This document shows positions 2,217 through 12,434 of a DNA stretch of 25,592 bases, piece after piece. Position 1 is the stretch's first letter. Every line of letters starts with the position of its first letter. This DNA comes from a virus. A program made the position numbers and the translations under genes. The notes below the pieces were generated by a model that saw only the letters and a list, made by a program, of their open reading frames with translations, ran no database searches and was not told where the DNA came from. The stretch is from the IMG/VR virus record IMGVR_UViG_3300022752_000353, positions 1-25,592 of that record; one strand, given 5' to 3'.

Positions 2217-2747
2217 ATGGTTGTTTACGTTGATTGCGATGGAGTTTTGGGTGATTGGGTTAAGCAGGTGCATCTATGGGCCGATAAGCCTCTCAAGCCT
2301 TGGAAGGCTTGGGACGGCTTCTCGGAATACGGTATAACCCAAGACCAGCTTGACGACATGATGTCGTTCGTATCGTTTTGGGATTCGATGGAACTCTTGC
2401 CAGGGGCCAAGAAGCTCTGGGCCGAAGTCGGCAAACTTGCCGACTCGGTATACATCTGCACTCGACCGTTCCCACATCCGAATTGCTTGTACGGCAGGGC
2501 CGTATGGTTACAAAGGGAGTTGGGCATCAGCATCCGGCAGACGATCTACATGCACGACAAGTACGAACTGGCTCGCCCAGGGGCGATCCTGATCGACGAT
2601 AATGTCGATAATTGTCGGCTTTTTGAGGCGGAAGGCGGTCGCGCAATCTTGTATCCTCAATCGTACAACAGTACGATTGAGATGAAAGACAAAACAGAGT
2701 TCGTCCTCGGTCAACTTCGTACCATCAAGGAGATCCTCAATGGCTAA
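2217..2747 (+). CDS. HAD-family 5'(3')-deoxyribonucleotidase-like phosphatase
   Basis: A 176-residue protein that would remove phosphate from (deoxy)nucleoside monophosphates in the cytoplasm. All four HAD motifs are present: DCDGVL (nucleophile Asp6, acid Asp8), Thr82 in YICTRP, Lys115 in MHDKYELA and Asp127-Asp128 in LIDDNVDN. The length fits the NT5C-type deoxyribonucleotidases found in phages. AAGGG at 2205-2209 stands 7 bases from the ATG at 2217; an in-frame ATG at 2214 and a GTG at 2184 inside the terminator are less likely starts. The gene overlaps the next one by 8 bases. A polynucleotide phosphatase role cannot be excluded. Confidence 0.85.
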   Translation: MVVYVDCDGVLGDWVKQVHLWADKPLKPWKAWDGFSEYGITQDQLDDMMSFVSFWDSMELLPGAKKLWAEVGKLADSVYICTRPFPHPNCLYGRAVWLQRELGISIRQTIYMHDKYELARPGAILIDDNVDNCRLFEAEGGRAILYPQSYNSTIEMKDKTEFVLGQLRTIKEILNG

Positions 2748-3810
2748 AAAGAAACCACTCGAAATCCTCGAAGAAGCAGCAACCACCAAGCGAAAGGAAC
2801 AGAAGTTCCTTTCGCTTGGATGCCCCTTGCTGAACCTCGCCGTATCCGGCGATTGGCGTAAGGGAATCATGACAGGAACCTACGTTTTCTACGTCGGCGA
2901 TTCGTCCAGCGGCAAGACGCTGGCGACCTTGACGTTGTTGGCCGAAGCGGCCAACAACCCTGATTTCGACGATTACGAACTGTGGCATATCGATGCCGAA
3001 GTGGGCAACCACTTCGACTTCGAGAAGTTCTTCGGGTCGAAGGCGGCCAAGCGGATTCAAGTTCGTAGACCGTCACCAGGAAAGCCGATGCTATTAGAGG
3101 AAGTCTACGATTGGCTAGAGTCTTTGAGTAAGGCTGGGAAGAAGTACGTCGCAGTAATCGACTCGATGGACTCCCTTTCCACAGAAGCCAAAGAGAAACA
3201 AATCGCAGACAACGCCAAACTACGAGCCGAAGGCAAAGAAACCAAAGGTAGCTACGGCGATGCTAAAGCTAAGCTCAATAGCCAATACTTGTCGCGAGTC
3301 CTGGCGCAGATCGCTGATTCCGGCTCCATTCTTCTGAGCATCTCGCAGACTCGGGACAACATCAATGCAAGCCCCTACGAACCCCAACAAACGCGAGGCG
3401 GCGGCCACGCGATCAAATTCAACGGCTCTGTTGAAATTTGGACGTATCCAGGGAGTGCCATGACGAAAGAGGTCAATGGAACCAAACGGAACATCGGAAT
3501 GATTCCGATATTCAAAGTGGAGAAGAATCGAGTGAACGGCAGGAAGCGAGTTGTTCGCATCCCAATCATGCCGGACTTTGGTATTGATGCCACAGGCGCG
3601 GCGGTAGACTTTTTGGTGACAGAGAAGGCGTGGACAGCCGACAACGGTAGGATCACTTCCACACTGTACGACAAGACCTACAACCGAGAGCAACTCATTC
3701 GCAAGATCGAAGATGATGGCCGAGAACAAGAGTTGTTCGAGGCGATGCAGGCTTGTTGGGACTCTATCGAGTCCCAACTGACAGTAACCCGTAAGAAAAG
3801 GTACGAATAA
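2740..3810 (+). CDS. RecA/UvsX-like recombination ATPase
   Basis: A 356-residue protein expected to form filaments on single-stranded DNA and drive strand exchange. The Walker A motif GDSSSGKT lies at residues 53-60, a candidate catalytic glutamate in HIDAEVG near residue 87, and Walker B YVAVIDS at 136-142. The DNA-binding L2-like stretch (QTRDNIN, then GGGHAIKF at about 202-227) is typical of RecA/UvsX rather than of DnaB-type helicases. Length agrees with UvsX and RecA. The start overlaps the nucleotidase end by 8 bases. The gene carries the longest perfect hairpin inside a gene here (15 bp, 2786-2819) near its 5' end. Confidence 0.85.
   Translation: MAKKKPLEILEEAATTKRKEQKFLSLGCPLLNLAVSGDWRKGIMTGTYVFYVGDSSSGKTLATLTLLAEAANNPDFDDYELWHIDAEVGNHFDFEKFFGSKAAKRIQVRRPSPGKPMLLEEVYDWLESLSKAGKKYVAVIDSMDSLSTEAKEKQIADNAKLRAEGKETKGSYGDAKAKLNSQYLSRVLAQIADSGSILLSISQTRDNINASPYEPQQTRGGGHAIKFNGSVEIWTYPGSAMTKEVNGTKRNIGMIPIFKVEKNRVNGRKRVVRIPIMPDFGIDATGAAVDFLVTEKAWTADNGRITSTLYDKTYNREQLIRKIEDDGREQELFEAMQACWDSIESQLTVTRKKRYE
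2786..2819 (+). other. 15-bp perfect inverted repeat inside the recA-like gene
   Basis: The arms 2786-2800 and 2805-2819 are perfectly complementary around an AGAA loop. It is the longest uninterrupted stem I found inside a gene. There is no T-tract, and it lies 16 codons into the gene, so it is not a terminator. Confidence 0.85.
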
Positions 3811-4027: not shown

Positions 4028-4359
4028 TGACCCAAACACCATACAAACTAACCGACGAGTACCGCAAATTGCTCGGTCGGTTCGTGGCTAAGTTGGTGGA
4101 ATACCTTGAAGCCAACATCGCTTACGACAAGAACGAATACTATGAGATTCACCCGCGATACCTTGGTGGTCATGCTGTGCGTGTCAGTTTATTTGTCGTT
4201 GGTCTTAAAGGTCTGTATCGTCTTGACGTAGCCTTTGCAATGGAAGATTGTGTTTCAGAGGATGAAGCCAGAGCCGAAATCGGAATCAAGGTCATGTTGG
4301 AAAAAGCCTTGTACGGCCTTAGGAAACGACCGCTGCCCACTCCGGAGACTATGCGATGA
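4027..4359 (+). CDS. Hypothetical protein (110 aa)
   Basis: No family recognised. GGAGG at 4017-4021 stands 5 bases before ATG 4027; ATG 4024 is in frame but almost touches the ribosome site. The N-terminal half is helical (EYRKLLGRFVAKLVEYLEA) and the middle has beta character (HAVRVSLFVVGLKGLYRLDVAF). It lies between the recA-like and exonuclease genes, overlapping both neighbours by a few bases, so a role in DNA metabolism is possible but unsupported by motifs. Confidence 0.7.
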   Translation: MTQTPYKLTDEYRKLLGRFVAKLVEYLEANIAYDKNEYYEIHPRYLGGHAVRVSLFVVGLKGLYRLDVAFAMEDCVSEDEARAEIGIKVMLEKALYGLRKRPLPTPETMR

Positions 4360-5204
4360 CCGACGATGCTCGCTACGCGATCATCGACGTAAGCAACCTC
4401 GCTTACGCTCGGTGGCACACCATCCCGCCTCAGTTTTGGCGGGATGATCCAGGTACGCTGTTCAAGGCGTTGCATCAGTCCTGCAACAAGTTGCAGGACG
4501 ATCTGTGCGTAGACACCCTGATTTTCTGCTTTGACGGCGGGTACGATTTTCGCAAGAAAATCGACCCTGCGTACAAGCAACCTCGCAAAGAGGCGAGGTT
4601 GCAAGCACCCGAGGATGAAAAGGAACTCAGGCAGATCCTATTTGACCAGATTGCAGCGTTTCGTGAGATTCACCTACCAACCATCGGGGCCAGGAATATC
4701 TTCTGGGCCAAGGGGTTCGAGGCTGACGATCTGATTGCATCCTGCGTATTAAATCTGCCAAAGGCTCGAAAGGTCTACATCGTCAGCAATGACGAGGATC
4801 TCTACCAGATGATCGAGGGCAGTCGGGTGGTAGTCTACCGCCCGACTTCCAAAACGATTGTCAACGAGGAGGATTTCCGAAGGAAACACTCCGAGATGCC
4901 TCCATGCCTGTACGCTTCCGCAAAGGCGTGGGCAGGCTGTTCGTCCGACAATGTTGTCGGACTAACAGGCATCGGTATGGCTAAGGCCGCAAAATTTTTA
5001 ATGGGAAAAGGCAACCCAGAGTTCCGAAAACGCTTCACCGACAGCGTAGAAGTGTACAACAAGAACATTCAGCTTACGAAACTCCCAGCACCGCAAACCC
5101 CAGCGTGCCGTCCTGTTCCACAGGACGTTCCGCTGGATTGGTCAGTGATGGGCCGAGTGTTCGACAGCATCCCTCAACGAACCCCGAAAGGCATAAAGAA
5201 ATGA
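4356..5204 (+). CDS. FEN-type 5'-3' exonuclease (T4 RNase H / T5 exonuclease-like)
   Basis: A 282-residue PIN/FEN-fold nuclease that would remove RNA primers and flaps. The acidic metal-binding residues are in order: Asp11 in YAIIDVSN, Asp60 in FCFDGG, the FEADDLIA cluster (residues 121-128), SNDEDLY (144-150) and GCSSDNVVG (194-202). The last runs into a helix-three-turn-helix DNA-binding loop (VGLTGIGMAKA). A basic arch follows the second acidic motif (KKIDPAYKQPRKEAR). The start codon overlaps the previous stop as ATGA, and the stop overlaps the next start the same way. Family assignment is firm; whether it is primarily an RNase H or a repair exonuclease is not. Confidence 0.9.
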   Translation: MTDDARYAIIDVSNLAYARWHTIPPQFWRDDPGTLFKALHQSCNKLQDDLCVDTLIFCFDGGYDFRKKIDPAYKQPRKEARLQAPEDEKELRQILFDQIAAFREIHLPTIGARNIFWAKGFEADDLIASCVLNLPKARKVYIVSNDEDLYQMIEGSRVVVYRPTSKTIVNEEDFRRKHSEMPPCLYASAKAWAGCSSDNVVGLTGIGMAKAAKFLMGKGNPEFRKRFTDSVEVYNKNIQLTKLPAPQTPACRPVPQDVPLDWSVMGRVFDSIPQRTPKGIKK

Positions 5205-5446
5205 GCATCCGATTCACCAGGAAACAGTGGCTAGACTCCAACGAAAAGCCGGAAGATCGGCGAACCGCCGAGGAGAAAAAGGCTGACAAGCAGAAGAACA
5301 GGACAACCCAACTGCGTAAGCACCCTCGACGAGTTCGCTTCCGCGAACTCGTCCAGGCCGTCGAGAATAAGTGGCCTGGATATCAACACATCAAGGACGA
5401 GCGAGTGCTGCAAGCAGTCGCGAGGAGGGCAGGCAATAATGGATAG
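5201..5446 (+). CDS. Hypothetical basic protein (81 aa)
   Basis: The ATG at 5201 overlaps the exonuclease stop (ATGA); an open frame continues upstream to 5105, but that part would lie inside the exonuclease in another frame. The product starts MSIRFTRKQWLDSNEKPEDR and is rich in Lys, Arg and Glu, with a charged helix in the middle. Nucleic acid binding is plausible from charge only. No family recognised. It overlaps the next gene by 8 bases. Confidence 0.7.
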   Translation: MSIRFTRKQWLDSNEKPEDRRTAEEKKADKQKNRTTQLRKHPRRVRFRELVQAVENKWPGYQHIKDERVLQAVARRAGNNG

Positions 5447-5801
5447 CACAACACCTGCCTTCATCACGGGGAGTAAGGCTTTGGCATCGGATTCGGGAGA
5501 ATCCGATGTTGATTTGGTTGTCCTCGTAGATCAAGAAACCAAAGAAAAGTTGATCGGACTATCCGACCTCGGAAAACTTCCATGTAGGTACGGTGGAAAG
5601 ACTGGCTTGAATCTGATACTCTGCACCAGCAGTTTTGAATACGTTGTTTGGAGGGGGGCCTTGCGAGTGTGTGCAGACACACAGAACGACCTTGGCAGGA
5701 AACTAACCAAGCTTGAACGACTTGCGATTTATGTCAAAGTCTTTGCTGATTTTGGATTCCAAGACTACTTTGAGGGGCCAGAACCCTCATGCAAACCATA
5801 G
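5439..5801 (+). CDS. Minimal nucleotidyltransferase-fold protein
   Basis: A 120-residue protein with the signature of the DNA polymerase beta-type nucleotidyltransferase fold: GS at residues 11-12 (FITGSKAL), then DVD at 23-25 (SGESDVDLVVLVD), the two metal-binding aspartates. The size fits the minimal (MNT) group, whose members include tRNA or protein nucleotidyl/AMP-transferases and antitoxins of HEPN toxins. No HEPN partner is seen next to it. The third acidic residue is not obvious; the CTSSFEYVVWRG segment may contribute it. The substrate is unknown. Overlap with the gene before it indicates co-translation. Confidence 0.7.
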   Translation: MDSTTPAFITGSKALASDSGESDVDLVVLVDQETKEKLIGLSDLGKLPCRYGGKTGLNLILCTSSFEYVVWRGALRVCADTQNDLGRKLTKLERLAIYVKVFADFGFQDYFEGPEPSCKP

Positions 5802-5812
5802 GAGGTCGAATA

Positions 5813-6007
5813 ATGGATAGTAATGAACTCACGACGGATGCCGTCATATTGTTTTTGGAGCGAGAGATTGCCCAAGTTGAGAATTCTCGGTACGGTGAGG
5901 ACGAGCGGCGATCCCCAGGGATTACGGCTTATTTATACCAAGCACTCGAAAGAAGAAAAAAAGAAATCGCACACCAACCGGTTCCATCGGAGGCGAACAA
6001 TGCCTAA
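5813..6007 (+). CDS. Hypothetical small protein (64 aa)
   Basis: GGAGG at 5801-5805 lies 7 bases before ATG 5813, preferred over the in-frame ATG 5789, which overlaps the previous gene. The product is acidic at its N-terminus and helical (FLEREIAQVENSRYG, then YLYQALERRKKEI). No family recognised. Its end contains the ribosome site of the next gene and overlaps it by 8 bases. Confidence 0.65.
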   Translation: MDSNELTTDAVILFLEREIAQVENSRYGEDERRSPGITAYLYQALERRKKEIAHQPVPSEANNA

Positions 6008-6596
6008 GAAATCAACCGCACCTATTACCCCTAAAAAGAAACGCAAGGGCGATCCGAAGAAAGGCTCCGCTTTCGAGCGAGAGTTCGCTCGAAAGCTATC
6101 CTTGTGGTGGAGTGAAGGAAAAGCCGACGATTGGTTCTGGCGGCTTGGTGGCTCGGGTGGCCGAGCCACCAACCGGGCCAAGTCGGGTAGGAACACAGCC
6201 AACGGCTATGGGGACATTGCAGCGCAATGTCCCGAAGCGCAGAAGTTGTTGAACATCGTCACTTTTGAACTTAAACGAGGGTATTCAAGCACGACCATCC
6301 AAGACCTGCTTGATAAGCCCAAAGGGCCGAATCAGATGCGGGACTTCATCGAGCAAGCGAAGCGTTCCGCTTCGCTTGCGGGTACTCCGTATTGGATTCT
6401 GGTTCTCAAGCGAGACAAGCGGGAAGAACTGATCGTAACCAATATGACTGGGAGTTATGACGCTTCGCGTTGTTGCCTTATGCGGTACGAAGGTTGCGAT
6501 GGGTTAGTTCTAGCCCGAACCGGATCGGAGTTTTGGAGTGATGATCGACGAAAAGCATTACAGGATTCGGTGAGACAATATGAAAATCCAGCGTAA
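6000..6596 (+). CDS. PD-(D/E)XK-like nuclease, possible Holliday-junction resolvase type
   Basis: A 198-residue protein. ATG 6000 has GGAGG 6 bases upstream; an upstream extension in the same frame lies over another gene and is rejected. After a Lys-rich N-terminus come GSAFEREFARKLSLWW (Glu26 or Glu28 as first acidic residue), then GDI (Asp72) and FELKRG (Glu90, Lys92), the spacing of a PD-(D/E)XK nuclease core. The layout resembles Hjc-type resolvases and RecB-like phage nucleases, which would fit the recombination genes around it. Four hairpins of 10-12 bp are packed within 310 bases of this gene. The nuclease fold is well supported; the substrate is inferred. Confidence 0.75.
   Translation: MPKKSTAPITPKKKRKGDPKKGSAFEREFARKLSLWWSEGKADDWFWRLGGSGGRATNRAKSGRNTANGYGDIAAQCPEAQKLLNIVTFELKRGYSSTTIQDLLDKPKGPNQMRDFIEQAKRSASLAGTPYWILVLKRDKREELIVTNMTGSYDASRCCLMRYEGCDGLVLARTGSEFWSDDRRKALQDSVRQYENPA
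6069..6379 (+). other. Cluster of four perfect hairpins inside the nuclease gene
   Basis: Stems: 6069-6080/6085-6096 (12 bp, 4-base loop), 6145-6156/6161-6172 (12 bp, GTGG loop), 6211-6220/6224-6233 (10 bp, 3-base loop) and 6353-6364/6368-6379 (12 bp, TTC loop). All are in coding sequence, all differ in sequence, and none has a T-tract. Confidence 0.85.
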
Positions 6597-7587
6597 AGAA
6601 TTCCTTCGTCACCTAGAGTCCTGCGCCCCTGGCTTGTCCTCTACCGAGAACATTGAGCAGTCTGACTGCTTTCTGTTCTCCAACGGGAAGGTCTACACCT
6701 TCAACGACGAGGTACTCTGCCAACAGGATACCATTGTCAATTTCCGCTGCGCGGCTCCTGCGAAGCCGCTTTTGGAAACCCTGCGTAAGCTCACCGAGGA
6801 TGAGATCGACGTTGAGTACAAAGACGACCGATTGGTAATCAAGTGTGCCAACGTCCGTCAGATCAAACTCAATGTTCACCCCGAAGTCATCCCCCACTAT
6901 GAAGCGGTGGATGCCGCAGGCGAGTGGGCAGACGTTCCACCGGTGTTCGCAGACGCATTGGCGATGGCCGCCGATTCGGCGGCCAAAGACTCCGAAGCAT
7001 GGGAACTGACCTGCGTTGAACTCAGCCCCCGTGGCCTACAGGCCACGGATGCGTTCCAGGCAATCCGCTACAAGCTGGATTGCCCAATCAGCAAGCCGAC
7101 GCTTATCAAGCGTTCGGCTTGCGGTGCGGTAAACGGCCTGGGCGTTGCCGCCCTGGCCGAATCGGAAGGTTGGTTGCATTTCAAAACGTATACCGGACTG
7201 CAAGTTGCAGTCCGGACGTACAACGGATCGTTGCCGGATCTTTCGGATGCGTTTCGATCAGAATCGGAGGCTAGCGTTAGGCTACCCTCTTGCCTACTCG
7301 ACGCATTGCAGAAGGCAACTGCGTTCCTCGCTGACACCGGAACTGGGAAGCAAGCCCAGTTCCGGCTCAAGCCTGGGAAAATTATGGTGCGTGGACAGAA
7401 CGAAAGTGGGATTTATGAGGAAGTCCGAGACGTACAATACGATGGGCCTGCCAGAGCGTTTGGGATCAACCCAAAGTATGTCCAAACGCTTCTCAAGCAT
7501 GACTATCCGGTTTCGCTGACGCAGACTGCTTTGCGTATTCGTGGCGAATCCTTTGTGTTCCTTACTTCGATGGAGACGGTGGTATGA
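6580..7587 (+). CDS. DNA polymerase III beta-like sliding clamp
   Basis: A 335-residue protein resembling the bacterial beta clamp (three tandem beta-alpha-beta repeats) more than the T4 gp45 clamp. Cues are LSSTENIEQSDCFLF near the N-terminus, the FADALAMAADSAAKDS helix and the ELSPRGLQATDAFQAIRYKLD strand pair in the central third, and the C-terminal FGINPKYVQTLLKH followed by LRIRGESFVFLTSMETVV, which imitates the end of a beta clamp. Length is slightly short of the usual 360-380. It would encircle DNA and tether a polymerase. It overlaps the nuclease by 17 bases and the next gene by ATGA. Strand-level homology needs a structure search, but the overall call is comfortable. Confidence 0.7.
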   Translation: MKIQRKEFLRHLESCAPGLSSTENIEQSDCFLFSNGKVYTFNDEVLCQQDTIVNFRCAAPAKPLLETLRKLTEDEIDVEYKDDRLVIKCANVRQIKLNVHPEVIPHYEAVDAAGEWADVPPVFADALAMAADSAAKDSEAWELTCVELSPRGLQATDAFQAIRYKLDCPISKPTLIKRSACGAVNGLGVAALAESEGWLHFKTYTGLQVAVRTYNGSLPDLSDAFRSESEASVRLPSCLLDALQKATAFLADTGTGKQAQFRLKPGKIMVRGQNESGIYEEVRDVQYDGPARAFGINPKYVQTLLKHDYPVSLTQTALRIRGESFVFLTSMETVV

Positions 7588-8333
7588 GCGAGTTCAAAGT
7601 TGGCGACGAGGTTTGGGTTAAATGCAAGGTAACAGAAGGTTGGTCAGGTATGGTTCCGCTTATTTACGGAGCCGTGGCCTTTCGGGCTGATCCGGACGAC
7701 TGCAAGCTCGTCGAGCCCGAGGCGGTTGAGCAACCCGTAAAGAAAGAACCGACTGAGGCGCAGAAGATCGCAGAGCGAACCCTGAAAGCGATTTGGGCAA
7801 CTCAAGATCAGCCGAAGCCCGAGCCAGATCCGCAGAGGCCATTTCAGGTCGGTGACTTAGTAGAAGTGTGCAACCCCCATTTAGGCACACACGGCCACCG
7901 TGGGGTCGTTACAGAGGTTCTGGCCGGATTAGAGGGCGTTAAAGTAAATATCAATAATTGCTGGTTCGTATTATCGCACAAGAGCCTTCGGCTAGCCAAA
8001 CCTGAACCAGATCCAGTTGTCGAGCAACCCTCGACAACTGAACCCGAAGCCAAGCGACCCGAGACTACCACCACACACTACGGCCCAGACATCAGCAAAG
8101 TCAGTTTTGAGTTTACCCAAGAACCCAATACCCTCGGCACGACCGATGCCTCGGGTTGCGGATCTGAGGATCTGACCGTCGAGTGCGAATACCAACTCCC
8201 CGGAGAGGAGCCGTTCTTCGTCATCCGATCCACTTCGGGTTGGTCTTTCGACGAACCCGAAACATTACTTGCCCTACTGAACTCTGTAAAGGATGCTGAG
8301 AAGAAATGCCGCTGTTCGCTTCCGCAAAGCTAA
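7584..8333 (+). CDS. Hypothetical protein with two SH3/KOW-like barrels
   Basis: A 249-residue protein built from two similar modules joined by Pro/Glu linkers. The first is at residues 2-45 (FKVGDEVWVKC...GAVAFRADPDDCKLV). The second is at about 89-135 (FQVGDLVEVCN...RGVVTEV...NNCWFVLSHKSLRL). The F.VGD.V pattern and short strands suggest SH3-like or KOW-type barrels. A third region (about 165-249) has FEFTQEP and FFVIRSTSGWSF segments and no known match. The start overlaps the clamp stop by ATGA and the end overlaps the UDG-exonuclease by 28 bases, so it may be an adaptor in the replication complex; that is inference from position. Confidence 0.65.
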   Translation: MSEFKVGDEVWVKCKVTEGWSGMVPLIYGAVAFRADPDDCKLVEPEAVEQPVKKEPTEAQKIAERTLKAIWATQDQPKPEPDPQRPFQVGDLVEVCNPHLGTHGHRGVVTEVLAGLEGVKVNINNCWFVLSHKSLRLAKPEPDPVVEQPSTTEPEAKRPETTTTHYGPDISKVSFEFTQEPNTLGTTDASGCGSEDLTVECEYQLPGEEPFFVIRSTSGWSFDEPETLLALLNSVKDAEKKCRCSLPQS

Positions 8334-9526
8334 CCAAGTCTTTGCCCGTCGTCCCGCTTTGCGGGACGTGCAAGGCAGACCGAAATTGCCAGCATCCAAA
8401 GCAGACTTGGCCGGGTAAACCGGCCAAAGTCGTCTTTGTGGTCGATAAAGCCGGTGACGACGCGCCGGATGCCCTCCTAAACGGCCAATTTGGCCGTTTA
8501 GGGACAGTTTGCAGTCGGGTTGGCGTAACTCTCGATGCTTACCCTAAAGTGCCCGCAGCGGCCTGCCCAGGGGCCTCAAACGAGGCGTGGAGGCATTGCC
8601 AACCGCTTGTGGCGAGCGAACTCGCTCGCCTCAACCCCGAAATCGTCATTCCCTACGGGCCAAGAGCCACGCAGTCGGTCATTGGCCGGTATTGGCAACA
8701 GCCTGCCGAGCTTTACGACCGGTGGTACGGCGCGGTGATCCCTTGCAGGGATCTCAACGCCTGGATCTGCCCGGTGGGCCTAATGGGCGAACACAAACGG
8801 ATGCTCGACGTGTCGAGCATGTTTGAGTACAAGTACCTACGGGATGCGATGCGAATATCGGGCCGCCCGTGGCCCGATGGGTGCGTACCGCTAGACAGTC
8901 GAATTCGGCAGGTCTACCACGCCCAAGAGATCATCGCCGAACTGGACAAGATCACCAAGACGGCCAAGATTGCGGCGTTCGACTACGAAACCACCGGGCT
9001 AAAGCCTGAGTGGGACAACCAGTTAATCGTGTCGATGGCGGTGGCATACGTCGCCGAAGGCGACGTACATTGTATATCATTCCCGGTATTCGCCGATACG
9101 CAGGATGCGATTCGGCGATTCCTGGTATCAGACATCCAAAAGATTGCTGCGAACATGAAGTTCGAGGATCGGTGGAGCCGATCCAAGCTGGGGGTTCAGG
9201 TTCGCCGGTGGTGGTGGGATACGATGCAGGCCGCGCATTGGGAGAATCCCAATAGCGGCATCACGGGCTTGGAGTTTCAGGCGTTTGCGAAGTTGGGCGT
9301 GCCCTACTTCGCTGATGACGTAGATTCGTTCTTCGAGTCCGAGGAAAATTCTCAGCGAAACAAGATATTCTCGATTCCCACGCCAAAGCTCCTGACGTAT
9401 AACGGGATGGATGCCATAGTCGAATTACTGCTGGCTTCGATGCAGATGGTCGAGAATGGCATCATCAAGGAACACTTCGTACCTAGTAAGTACCTACCAG
9501 CAAAATGCTCACAGAAATCCACCTGA
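8306..9526 (+). CDS. Family-4-like uracil-DNA glycosylase fused to a DnaQ/PolA-type 3'-5' exonuclease
   Basis: A 406-residue two-domain protein. Residues 1-185 resemble an iron-sulfur uracil-DNA glycosylase: CGTC (Cys19, Cys22) with Cys87 and Cys98 as likely cluster ligands, VVFVVDKAGDDAP as the substrate loop, and IVIPYGPRATQSVIG as the Rossmann-like strand after the last Cys. Residues 220-385 form a 3'-5' exonuclease: FDYETTG (Asp226, Glu228), ANMKFEDRW (Asn283, Asp288) and LLTYNGMDA (Tyr365, Asp369). This matches the N-terminal part of some phage family A polymerases (SPO1 type), but the protein stops where the polymerase domain should begin. It overlaps the Rad50-like start by 22 bases. 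The usual HPSP motif of UDG is not evident, so glycosylase activity is uncertain. Confidence 0.8.
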   Translation: MPLFASAKLTKSLPVVPLCGTCKADRNCQHPKQTWPGKPAKVVFVVDKAGDDAPDALLNGQFGRLGTVCSRVGVTLDAYPKVPAAACPGASNEAWRHCQPLVASELARLNPEIVIPYGPRATQSVIGRYWQQPAELYDRWYGAVIPCRDLNAWICPVGLMGEHKRMLDVSSMFEYKYLRDAMRISGRPWPDGCVPLDSRIRQVYHAQEIIAELDKITKTAKIAAFDYETTGLKPEWDNQLIVSMAVAYVAEGDVHCISFPVFADTQDAIRRFLVSDIQKIAANMKFEDRWSRSKLGVQVRRWWWDTMQAAHWENPNSGITGLEFQAFAKLGVPYFADDVDSFFESEENSQRNKIFSIPTPKLLTYNGMDAIVELLLASMQMVENGIIKEHFVPSKYLPAKCSQKST

Positions 9527-10635
9527 CCAATTTCCAGGCCCACCGCGACCGACACTTGACGTTCGTTCCGAACGTCAATGTCATTGTTGGCCCCACAAAC
9601 GCAGGTAAGTCGTCCGTCTTTCGTGCAATCCGGTGGCTTGTGGAACACAAGCCGATCACCGGATTGCAGACGTTTGACGAGCCTCATACCGAAGTGACCA
9701 TCGCCTCCGAGAGAGGCGAGGCCACTCGATTCAAGCACCCGTCCGAAGGGTATGGCTACAAGGTTGGAGACGCAATCTTCGTGGCGTGCGCCACGAAGCA
9801 ACCATCCGAAGTCCAAGCTACGCTTGGACTCTCGGAAATAAACCTGCAAGGCCAACACGATGCTCCGTTTCTGCTGACGCTATCCCCCGGCCAGATGGCA
9901 AAGGAACTCAATCGCATTGTGGACTTGTCGATCATCGACAAGGCTAATTCTATAGCCGCGAGCAATGCCACCAGAACCAAGGGCGAACTCTCGGCGATGG
10001 AAACCATCGCCGAGAAACAGAAAGCCGAACTTGACCAGATCGCCTGGATTCCAGGCGTTCTGGCTCAGCATGAATCATTAGTAGTATTTATGCAAGAGTT
10101 GCAGTATAAGCAAAATCGATACACGCAGTTATCTGACAAGTCGCAGGTAATCGACGATCTATCCAAATCTCTGCTAGCATTAGAAAGCCTGATACTAGGC
10201 TTGCAAGCCTTGGCCGATCAGGCCAAGGCTCTCGCCGACAAGCAGAATCGCCGCAAGGCGATTCTGACGACAGTTGCACCTTTGGCCGACGTGTCGGCCA
10301 AAATCAGTTTAGTTAATACTGTTGGATCAGGATTAGCAAAACTGAAAAAGCAGGGCGAGCAGATTGCCGCTAAGCAATCCCGATTCGTTGTATTGCAATC
10401 TGCAATACAACGCCTCGCATCGACTAAAGAGATCCACGGCGACGTGGATCTCCTGCTAGAAGCAAGCAAGCGACTCGCAGAGTCGCGAGCGAAGCAAACA
10501 AAGCTGATGCGATTGTTGGAGAGCATAGCAGATTGGCAGGGGACTTACAGAGTAGCTTGTCAATCTGTCACCGAGTTAGAAACCAAAATCAAATTAGTGA
10601 GAGAAGTATGTCCGACGTGCAAAAGGCCCCTTTAG
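9505..10635 (+). CDS. Rad50/SbcC-like ATPase, N-terminal half ending at the zinc hook
   Basis: A 376-residue protein. It begins with the ABC-type ATPase N-lobe: IHLTNFQAHRDRHLTF, Walker A GPTNAGKSS (29-37) and a Q-loop-like LQGQHDAPFLL near residue 118. From about 130 to 365 it is a long coiled coil, and the last residues are VCPTCKRPL, with Cys369 and Cys372 forming a CxxC zinc hook four residues before the stop. No signature motif or Walker B is present; these are in a separate gene downstream (11871-12434). The two halves would meet to form a working ATPase, clamped at the hook, and act with the Mre11-like nuclease encoded between them. The gene is dense with perfect hairpins. The phage-type QAH...NVIVGP start resembles known phage SbcC-like N-lobes. 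Confidence 0.85.
   Translation: MLTEIHLTNFQAHRDRHLTFVPNVNVIVGPTNAGKSSVFRAIRWLVEHKPITGLQTFDEPHTEVTIASERGEATRFKHPSEGYGYKVGDAIFVACATKQPSEVQATLGLSEINLQGQHDAPFLLTLSPGQMAKELNRIVDLSIIDKANSIAASNATRTKGELSAMETIAEKQKAELDQIAWIPGVLAQHESLVVFMQELQYKQNRYTQLSDKSQVIDDLSKSLLALESLILGLQALADQAKALADKQNRRKAILTTVAPLADVSAKISLVNTVGSGLAKLKKQGEQIAAKQSRFVVLQSAIQRLASTKEIHGDVDLLLEASKRLAESRAKQTKLMRLLESIADWQGTYRVACQSVTELETKIKLVREVCPTCKRPL
9625..9667 (+). other. Nested two-stem inverted repeat inside the Rad50-like gene
   Basis: Outer stem 9625-9634/9658-9667 (10 bp) encloses inner stem 9635-9642/9646-9653 (8 bp) with a GAA loop; only GATC (9654-9657) is unpaired. The whole can form an 18-bp interrupted hairpin within a gene, just after the Walker A coding segment. 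Confidence 0.8.
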
Positions 10636-11519
10636 CCATCCTGTGTTCGGATCTCCACTTGCGGGAGACTACTCCGAGTGCCAGGGCCGAAAAGGACTGG
10701 TACGAGGTCATGGAGAACCATCTCAACGCCTTAGGGCAGGCATCTTGTCGATGGAGTTCCCCGATCATCTGCGCAGGTGACGTGTTCGACCGATGGAATC
10801 CATCGAGCGAACTCGTCCGATTCGCCATCCAGAAGCTACCCCGAATGGCGGCTATTCCAGGCCAACACGACCTTCGTTACCACGACTATGAAAGTAGGCT
10901 CCGAGGAGCCTACGGATGTTTGGTTGCCGCTGAGGTCATATACGATCTACCCGCAGGCCAATGGGACGGAGTTCCTGCCGAGGGCTTGCAAGTGTGGGCA
11001 ATGCCTTGGGGTCGGTGGGAACCGCCGACCGAGGCTGACAATCTCCCCTTCTATGGAATCAAGCTGGGAGTCCTGCACAAATACGCATGGAGCAACCAGT
11101 TCAACTGCCACGCCAAAGCCGACGAGTCGTCTCGTTTCGAGCGACTCTACCCCAACCTCGATGCCATGATTATCGGGGACAACCACATCCCTTGGATGCT
11201 ACCCAACGTGATGAACCACGGTGGGTTCATCCCGCAAAACGCCGATCAGAAATCCCTAGTGCCCCACTACGGAGTCCTGATGTCAGACGGCTCCATTGAG
11301 AAGCATCCCTACGACGTGCCTGAGCCTGTTTGGGCAGAATCATGGCAACCTGAGATCGAGGATGCCAAGGTGGCATCCGAGGTCATCCAAGAGTTGCTGG
11401 ATCTCCAACACACCGGCGATTCATTCCTAGAAACCTTGGAGCGTTCCGTAGATGCCGTTCCGCCACGGACTGCTCACATCCTTAGGCAAATGCTTGCGGA
11501 TCTGAAACAAGATGGCTGA
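10608..11519 (+). CDS. SbcD/Mre11-like nuclease
   Basis: A 303-residue calcineurin-like phosphoesterase that would work with the Rad50-like halves to cut DNA ends and hairpins. Motifs: SDLHL (Asp15, His17), AGDVFDRW (Asp58, Asp61), PGQHDLRYH (Gln86, His87, Asp88) and IIGDNHIPW. The usual GNHD motif is GQHD here; the Asn-to-Gln change also appears in phage relatives I know of. ATG 10608 is preferred over an upstream in-frame ATG at 10533 because the extra residues do not look like the fold and would lie inside the Rad50-like gene. The gene overlaps the hook-coding end of the N-half by 28 bases. Confidence 0.85.
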   Translation: MSDVQKAPLAILCSDLHLRETTPSARAEKDWYEVMENHLNALGQASCRWSSPIICAGDVFDRWNPSSELVRFAIQKLPRMAAIPGQHDLRYHDYESRLRGAYGCLVAAEVIYDLPAGQWDGVPAEGLQVWAMPWGRWEPPTEADNLPFYGIKLGVLHKYAWSNQFNCHAKADESSRFERLYPNLDAMIIGDNHIPWMLPNVMNHGGFIPQNADQKSLVPHYGVLMSDGSIEKHPYDVPEPVWAESWQPEIEDAKVASEVIQELLDLQHTGDSFLETLERSVDAVPPRTAHILRQMLADLKQDG

Positions 11520-11772
11520 TTTTGTTTGCGTAATCTGCAAAAACTTGGTCTATCGTATTCCAGAAGTACCTAGCCCAGACGTACAATACATCGCCTGCCC
11601 CTATGGTGGGGCAGGCGATAAACCATGCACACTCAAAGCCAGGAGAACTGATTGTGGACTATGCGGAAATTCAAAAGAGATTAGAGTCAGCCAAGACTCA
11701 GCGAACGAGATTGGAGGGACAGAAGGAGCAACTACTTCGCAACCTCAAGGATCTCGGACACGAGACGATTGA
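11512..11772 (+). CDS. Putative small zinc-binding protein (86 aa), overlapping the next gene
   Basis: The frame opens at ATG 11512, overlapping the Mre11-like stop by 8 bases. The first 55 residues hold CVIC, CPYG and KPC, which could bind zinc; a later CGLC pair lies in the part that overlaps the GTG-started gene at 11654 by 119 bases in another frame. The C-terminal 40 residues look like a by-product of that frame. It may be a real short zinc ribbon with an untidy end, or partly spurious. A 12-bp hairpin lies at 11590-11619. Confidence 0.45.
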   Translation: MADFVCVICKNLVYRIPEVPSPDVQYIACPYGGAGDKPCTLKARRTDCGLCGNSKEIRVSQDSANEIGGTEGATTSQPQGSRTRDD

Positions 11773-11902
11773 GTCAGCGCAGGCGGAAATCAAGGAACTC
11801 GAACAGTACATTGAAACCCATGAACCATCTTTCAACCAACAGTGTGACGAATTTTTTGCTGCTAACCAAGATGCAATCAACGCTCTCGGCAGCCTCAAAT
11901 AA
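11654..11902 (+). CDS. Coiled-coil protein, likely the descending coil of the split Rad50
   Basis: An 82-residue protein starting at GTG 11654, with AGGAG 8 bases upstream. It is a near-continuous charged heptad coil (IQKRLESAKTQRTRLEGQK, then IKELEQYIETHEPSF). It lies between the Mre11-like nuclease and the Rad50-like C-lobe and overlaps the latter by 32 bases in another frame, so it could supply the coil that leads back from the hook. The stop codon sits in a hairpin (11893-11910). A frameshift joining it to the C-lobe cannot be excluded. Confidence 0.7.
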   Translation: MDYAEIQKRLESAKTQRTRLEGQKEQLLRNLKDLGHETIESAQAEIKELEQYIETHEPSFNQQCDEFFAANQDAINALGSLK

Positions 11903-12434
11903 ATTTGAGGTTGCCTTGAAATCTGTCGAGAACAGCAAGTCGTCCATAGACGACTTGCGAGATCAGTATGAGGCCGCCTTGGCGGCCAAAGAGATTGTCC
12001 AACAGATCAGCATGGAGTGCCAAGAGGCTTGCCAGAAACGCATCGGGTACGTTGTTACCCGATGCTTGCAGGCAGTCTTTGGCGACCAAGCATTGAAGTT
12101 TCTGCTCGTTTTCGAGCGGAAACGGGGACAGACAGAAGTGCGCGGCGTACTTGTCGATGCGGAAGGTCACGAGCTTGACCCCCTCCAATCGTGCGGCGGC
12201 GGAATTTTAGACGTAGCAGCTTTCGGCTTGCGGCTCGCTTGCCTCATGCTGCAACGTCCTCAACCTGCCAGGGTTTTGATTCTGGACGAACCGTTCCGGT
12301 TCGTCTCGTCGCACTACCGCAGCAACGTCCGGGCACTTCTGTCTGAGCTTTCACAAGAGATGGGTGTGCAGATTATCATGGTGACGCACATCGAGGAATT
12401 TATGGACTTTGAAAACAGATTGGAGATCGAGTGA
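11871..12434 (+). CDS. Rad50/SbcC-like ATPase, C-terminal half
   Basis: A 187-residue protein holding the missing second half of the Rad50 ATPase: a short coil (residues 8-60), the ABC-type signature region SCGGGILDVAAFGLRL (107-122), Walker B VLILDEPF (135-142, Asp139 and Glu140), the D-loop area RFVSSHYRSN and the switch histidine in VTHIEEF (His173). ATG 11871 is chosen because the frame upstream of it reads across the coiled-coil gene and looks non-native. Without the N-lobe this protein has no Walker A, so it must pair with the product of the 9505 gene. The phage-type QSCGGG...DV..F.LRL motif is known from phage SbcC-like proteins. Confidence 0.85.
   Translation: MQSTLSAASNKFEVALKSVENSKSSIDDLRDQYEAALAAKEIVQQISMECQEACQKRIGYVVTRCLQAVFGDQALKFLLVFERKRGQTEVRGVLVDAEGHELDPLQSCGGGILDVAAFGLRLACLMLQRPQPARVLILDEPFRFVSSHYRSNVRALLSELSQEMGVQIIMVTHIEEFMDFENRLEIE

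Follow-up and report, generated by a model that had tools for sequence, protein, structure and literature searches.

Genes of the split Rad50 locus

The window analysed here is the complete IMG/VR virus record IMGVR_UViG_3300022752_000353, which has a length of 25,592 bases and is probably a genome fragment. Its plus strand contains, between positions 9505 and 12434, a Rad50–Mre11 (SbcCD-type) locus in which the Rad50 part is divided among three separate genes, designated here N, T and C. All the features of this locus listed below are on the same strand.

The N subunit (9505–10635, 376 amino acids, aa) comprises a Rad50 N-lobe, a helical arm and a C-terminal CPTC zinc hook, and is recognised both by Pfam AAA_23 (2.9e-13) and by the family profile. 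The protein has the Walker A motif GPTNAGKSS (codons 9589–9615; G29, G34 and K35 are invariant) and the Q-loop QGQHD. It terminates in CPTCKRPL, which confirms the initial annotation, made from this sequence alone, that the gene ends four residues past the hook. The hook cysteines C369 and C372 are invariant in an alignment of 57 rows, and their codons (10609–10620) are overlapped by the start codon of the next gene. This gene (10608–11519, ATG at 10608) encodes a Mre11/SbcD-like phosphoesterase of 303 aa, identified by its invariant motif residues and by profile matches in the PDB.

The T subunit (11654–11902) is a two-helix protein of 82 aa with a GTG start and a near-invariant Gly22; it is supported by conservation, the codon-position pattern and a structural model. 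The C subunit (11871–12434, 187 aa), recognised by the family profile, is a Rad50 C-lobe with a short N-terminal coil, a CGGG signature, a Walker B motif (VLILDEPF, codons 12273–12296; D139, E140, P141 and F142 are invariant) and an H-loop. Its open reading frame (ORF) opens at TTG 11769; the start codon is uncertain, ATG 11871 being the likely one. With this start, T and C overlap by 32 nucleotides (nt) in different frames. GTG 11654 is the earliest start codon of the T frame in locus L030.

The coding capacity of T and C was assessed using 12 close relatives, in which 923 nt were aligned with zero indels. In the T-only stretch, read in the T frame, the numbers of variable sites at codon positions 1, 2 and 3 are 8, 2 and 12, respectively; in the C stretch, read in the C frame, they are 16, 17 and 73. 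Each of the two genes shows the variation pattern of a translated frame, and the locus is more than a chance arrangement. The ORFs and this pattern confirm a GTG-started gene followed by a C-lobe gene with signature, Walker B and switch His, as initially annotated.

Identity of the N, C and Mre11-like proteins

A search of the PDB with a profile of 57 N proteins gave Methanocaldococcus jannaschii Rad50 (3aux) as the top match (6.4e-16, chain residues 5–221). The top match for a profile of 55 C proteins is also 3aux (6.1e-14, residues 172–368), so that the two profiles cover successive parts of one solved protein. The C proteins contain the CGGG/GGG signature, the ILDEPF Walker B motif, the D-loop and the MVTH switch His. 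Each half alone is an incomplete ABC active site, as Walker A is found only in N, while the signature, Walker B and switch His are found only in C. Judged by the homology of N and C, the locus is derived from Rad50, and its product would work in the manner of Rad50.

A profile of 12 diverse Mre11-like proteins matched Mre11/SbcD chains in the PDB. The motifs DxH, GD, GxHD, H and GDxH are invariant among these members, the invariant residues being D15, H17, D58, H87, D88, H157, D191 and H193. Differences in the metal-ligand positions can also be noted: most members have GQHD in place of GNHD, and GDxH is found in place of GHxH, its Asp being invariant in the 12 proteins. A helical-looking C-terminal tail is present in the Mre11-like protein, where the capping and Rad50-binding helices would be sought.

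An N-lobe with Walker A and Q-loop, the C-lobe motifs, a CxxC hook and a nearby Mre11/SbcD gene, all characteristic of Rad50/SbcC, were found. The single chain with lobes joined by coil, hook and coil was not; the lobes are encoded by separate genes in every complete locus.

Conservation and distribution

Scans of IMG/VR revealed 76 C-lobe loci with a single-sequence query and 403 matching stretches with an alignment query, whereas a scan of bacterial genomes gave four matches only. The survey with iterated profiles comprised 146 loci. The order N–Mre11–T–C was found in 125 of them and the order N–T–C–Mre11 in one; most of the others are truncated at the end of a contig. At least four loci apparently lacking T contain a diverged T-like ORF. 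None of the 146 loci has a fused ORF matched by two of the families. In 114 of 134 N proteins, the hook is located 15 residues or fewer from the C terminus. The distance matrices of the four genes correlate with one another (rho 0.43–0.75, 0/200 permutations).

The profile searches and the 125 conserved loci bear out the initial view that Rad50 is divided directly behind the zinc hook, that the Mre11 gene stands between the two halves and that a third piece has a gene of its own. The same annotation regarded the gene order and the extra piece as the special features of this DNA and suggested checking the order in related phages. Both features are real, but N–Mre11–T–C is the norm of the family and not an oddity of the window phage, and T is a conserved subunit rather than an extra. 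A full-length Rad50 elsewhere in the genome and predicted structures that fail to pair had been named as findings that would refute the split, and neither was encountered; no full-length or second Rad50 was detected in the 41–61 kb records of close relatives, each of which gave one N-lobe and one C-lobe match.

The relative position of T and C is variable. The T/C frame is shifted by +1 in 76 loci and by +2 in 38, and in 19 loci the frame is the same (0) with an intervening stop. The distance between T and C exceeds 400 nt in 17 loci and reaches 3.8–4.1 kb in L044 and L057. In some loci, T is encoded beside N or Mre11, away from C.

Among 50,697 deposited phage records, the system was found in four, all unrecognised. 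In Bacillus phage vB_BboS-125, gp32 corresponds to N, gp34 to T and gp35 to C, and there is an unannotated Mre11 ORF. In the PHROGs database, these proteins belong to families 16465 (N, "exonuclease"), 18563 (T, of unknown function) and 15167 (C, "ATPase"), which are catalogued as unrelated. Microcystis phage Mvi-JY20 also carries the system. In the 133-kb record of Microbacterium phage Magritte (OR553905), the genes are scattered: N is located at 93.8 kb, T at 127.2 kb and C at 0.3 kb, with T near one terminus and C near the other of the linear sequence as deposited; the Magritte C protein is annotated as "exonuclease". One huge uncultured phage has the system, and T was not found in it. Plasmid p3 of Bacillus velezensis LBY-1 (NZ_CP079100, 38921–42622), possibly a phage-plasmid, has the order N–T–C–hypothetical–Mre11, and its C protein is annotated as ParA.

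Several deviations from the usual organisation were observed. Among L036–L038, L096, L074 and L068, some N proteins extend beyond the hook, and the hook of L068, CPFYNVICPL, is degenerate. In L150 (about 5164–6549), the C-lobe gene adjoins a queC-like gene, and no recognisable N, T or Mre11 is located nearby.

The T protein

Proteins of the T family have a length of about 82 aa and share the consensus LK..FG...EEA, with the near-invariant Gly22, between two helices. Searches with T against the PDB, PHROGs and deposited phage genomes gave coiled-coil noise only, and no convincing PHROGs family match was found for T of the window's group. Weak matches to full-length homologues are collinear, being located after the hook region and before the C-lobe. 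In phrog_77, T matches residues 655–730, where N reaches 637 and C begins at 891. In T4 gp46, the matches, which are not significant, are at residues 304–326 and then 354–375, just past the hook at 288.

Arm lengths and repeats

The distance from the Q-loop to the hook falls almost entirely at 170–173, 211–227, 251–261 and 298 residues, with a step of about 41 aa; the class averages are 171, 215, 255 and 298, and the window belongs to the 254 class. The returning part of the arm behaves differently. The length of T plus the distance from the C start to the signature averages about 184–193 in every class, with a slope against the N arm of 0.001 ± 0.05. Since this length is constant while the N arm grows, the surplus units of the longer classes are on the N strand only. 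For comparison, the Q-loop-to-hook distance in T4 gp46 is 154 and the hook-to-signature distance is 183; the length of T plus C is therefore close to that of the T4 returning half.

The distal arm of the window N protein (10108–10608) contains tandem repeats of about 44 aa, anchored by KQxR at residues 202, 246, 290 and 330. Of 200 shuffles preserving the heptad register, none was as self-similar as the actual sequence. Similar repeats are present in phage vB_BboS-125 and absent from L039. The extra units map to the distal half of the arm, their exact position being blurred by the internal repeats. The arm-length classes may reflect only few independent insertion events, and the extra units would be either self-contained or bound by extra T copies.

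Three-dimensional model of N, T and C

In locus L148, N, T and C share a frame, and this locus was read through as a single chain with stops replaced by Gly. In this chain of 986 residues, N (348 residues) is followed by about 310 residues that are out of frame, then by T, a linker and finally C. A predicted template modelling score (pTM) of 0.51 was obtained, with disordered linkers and well-predicted lobes: the predicted local distance difference test (pLDDT) values are mostly 84–97 for the N-lobe blocks and 86–98 for the C-lobe. T is modelled as two helices (661–696 and 701–734, about 35 aa each) separated by a 4-residue turn, with pLDDT of about 90.

If the linkers count for almost nothing, the estimated pTM ceilings are about 0.4 for N alone and about 0.46 for N with T; a value of 0.51 would therefore mean that N and C are placed together. 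A Foldseek search of viral models matched the co-fold to whole full-length viral Rad50, with a template modelling (TM) score of up to 0.53 over a 571-aa target, which is too high for one lobe alone. The two best viral-model matches are A0A516LLJ5, which is N-sized, and A0A516LLJ2, which is C-sized; their near-consecutive accessions suggest that they come from one phage. The models give indirect support for N and C forming one Rad50 head, the pTM part of which is an inference from one number. To this extent, the co-folding suggested in the initial annotation came out in favour of a common head.

Proposed mechanism and alternatives

We propose that the tripartite Rad50 together with Mre11 forms a DNA-end-processing recombination nuclease of the SbcCD type, used by the phage, and assign this reading a probability of about 0.78. 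At the level of sequence, the homology of N, C and the Mre11-like protein, the four separate conserved genes and the hook ending the N protein are established. The N subunit would supply Walker A, the Q-loop, the outgoing arm and the zinc hook, while C would supply the signature, Walker B, the switch His and the head-proximal returning coil. We infer that T, in the distal arm, takes the place of the returning coil next to the hook and that the hook marks the apex when the arm is folded. The N and C lobes would assemble into one ABC head; two heads would close on ATP and dimerise via zinc bound by two C-terminal CPxC hooks. Mre11 would bind at the head and cut there. The nuclease would resect or cut DNA ends for phage recombination and replication, beside a RecA-like protein, a sliding clamp and a 5'–3' exonuclease.

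Several results weigh against this proposal. For T, no match to Rad50 reaches significance. A simple two-stranded arm fits the shortest class only; in the others, the window included, the N arm is in surplus. The co-fold was made from one polypeptide that includes about 360 linker residues translated out of frame and Gly in place of stops, and it was judged from summary scores; a Foldseek search of the PDB with it mostly matched one lobe per structure, which is not decisive. The initial suggestion that the cut preserves the coiled-coil hairpin holds for the position of the break, at the hook. An intact simple hairpin is too simple, as the N arm exceeds T plus C by multiples of about 41 aa.

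The surplus can be explained differently if T is an additional subunit of the arm, a hairpin bound to the units of about 41 aa in N, perhaps with a separate T for each of them, in the manner of light chains along a lever arm. The quantised growth of the N arm with T and C unchanged, the tandem repeats of the window arm, the two modelled T helices of about 35 aa and the encoding of T beside N or Mre11, apart from C, are in agreement with this. However, the weak collinear matches to the post-hook coil agree with the simpler reading of T as coil, and the shortest arm class roughly fits this as well; docking is rather unlikely. Still more doubtful is a modular machine with a variable count of N-arm units of about 41 aa, each clasped by a T copy, and no full returning coil. 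If it were true, the length and stiffness of the arm would be set by counting units.

It is very improbable that the ATPase belongs to an SMC-like defence or anti-defence type such as Lamassu, Gabija or PARIS rather than to Rad50. The N-lobe does match the LmuB, Old, AriA and GajA models with E-values down to 2e-10, but mainly over the Walker A stretch (about residues 1–70 of N). Mre11 has no match among the defence models, and T gives coiled-coil noise only. No partner genes of Lamassu, Gabija, PARIS or Septu type were matched among the locus proteins, Rad50 is the top PDB match for both lobes, and the Mre11-type nuclease is a constant neighbour. Slimmer still are the chances of two half-ATPases acting apart with separate partners. 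The distance between N and C in Magritte would suit such halves, but each holds only one half of the ABC active site, and N and C co-occur and diverge together. Finally, T and C as one gene, expressed by programmed frameshifting or interrupted through a mistake in sequencing or assembly, are suggested by their overlap in different frames in the window, but the same layout without indels in 12 contigs and the varying relative frame make this exceedingly improbable, and the distant T genes, including those of L044, L057 and Magritte, rule out frameshift, sequencing-error and fused T–C readings as a general account.

Genomic surroundings

An ORF encoding a small Cys-rich protein of 86 aa (11512–11772) is located between Mre11 and T and overlaps T; it is supported by third-position variation outside the overlap. 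In the close clade, Cys-rich ORFs with CxxC motifs occupy the equivalent place (L036, L040 and L041), and comparable short CxxC ORFs are found between Mre11 and T in more distant relatives. A Shine–Dalgarno-like sequence, AGGAGAA (11641–11647), precedes the T start.

Upstream of the locus, the window encodes the RecA-like protein (2740–3810), the 5'–3' exonuclease (4356–5204) and the sliding-clamp-like protein (6580–7587). The gene just upstream of N (8306–9526) encodes a protein whose C-terminal half matches the DNA_pol_A 3'–5' exonuclease; the N-terminal half is Cys-rich and, judged by eye, resembles uracil-DNA-glycosylase.

Comparison with known systems

The T4 gp46/gp47 complex has the lobes, the CPTC hook, the Mre11-type partner and the phage setting in common with the locus, and by this analogy the role of the system is probably similar, namely end resection or cutting. 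The hook-to-signature distance of T4 gp46 is also close to the corresponding length of T plus C. However, gp46 is one chain of 560 aa, whereas the locus has three genes, and the N arm in most members exceeds that of T4 by about 60 to 145 aa. The closest solved relatives of both lobes are archaeal Rad50–Mre11 complexes (M. jannaschii 3aux and 3av0, P. furiosus 1f2t and 3qkr). In archaea, Rad50 naturally consists of one chain and has no T-like subunit; crystals with N and C as two distinct chains were obtained from engineered forms (1f2t, 1ii8 and chains A/B of 3qkr).

Virus-borne rearrangements of the pair have been described. Mimivirus R555 and others are Mre11/Rad50 fusion proteins, and Bacillus phage 0305phi8-36 is mentioned as having a fusion without one P-loop segment (PMC3175470). 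The known rearrangements are thus fusions in which the proteins are joined, whereas here Rad50 is cut up. A survey of jumbo phages (PMC7824862) reported split polymerases and RNA polymerases; SbcC is regarded there as one ABC ATPase. For SMC coiled coils, the length was obtained by averaging two matching strands and is multimodal, with steps of about 100 aa (PMC5344682). The arms of the present family are multimodal as well, but only the N strand varies, in steps of about 41 aa. No published description of a split Rad50/SbcC was found in the open-access literature, which does not prove its absence elsewhere.

Implications

Phage genes annotated as "hypothetical" or misnamed, such as C as ParA or chromosome segregation protein and N as exonuclease, gain names from these results. 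Rad50 and SMC proteins are viewed as single chains in which a long arm, folded back on itself, ties the lobes together. A natural and conserved three-piece Rad50 would show that the arm link tying the lobes is dispensable. It would also provide a ready system for swapping arm, hook and lobes as separate subunits, making the role of the arm in DNA-end processing testable.

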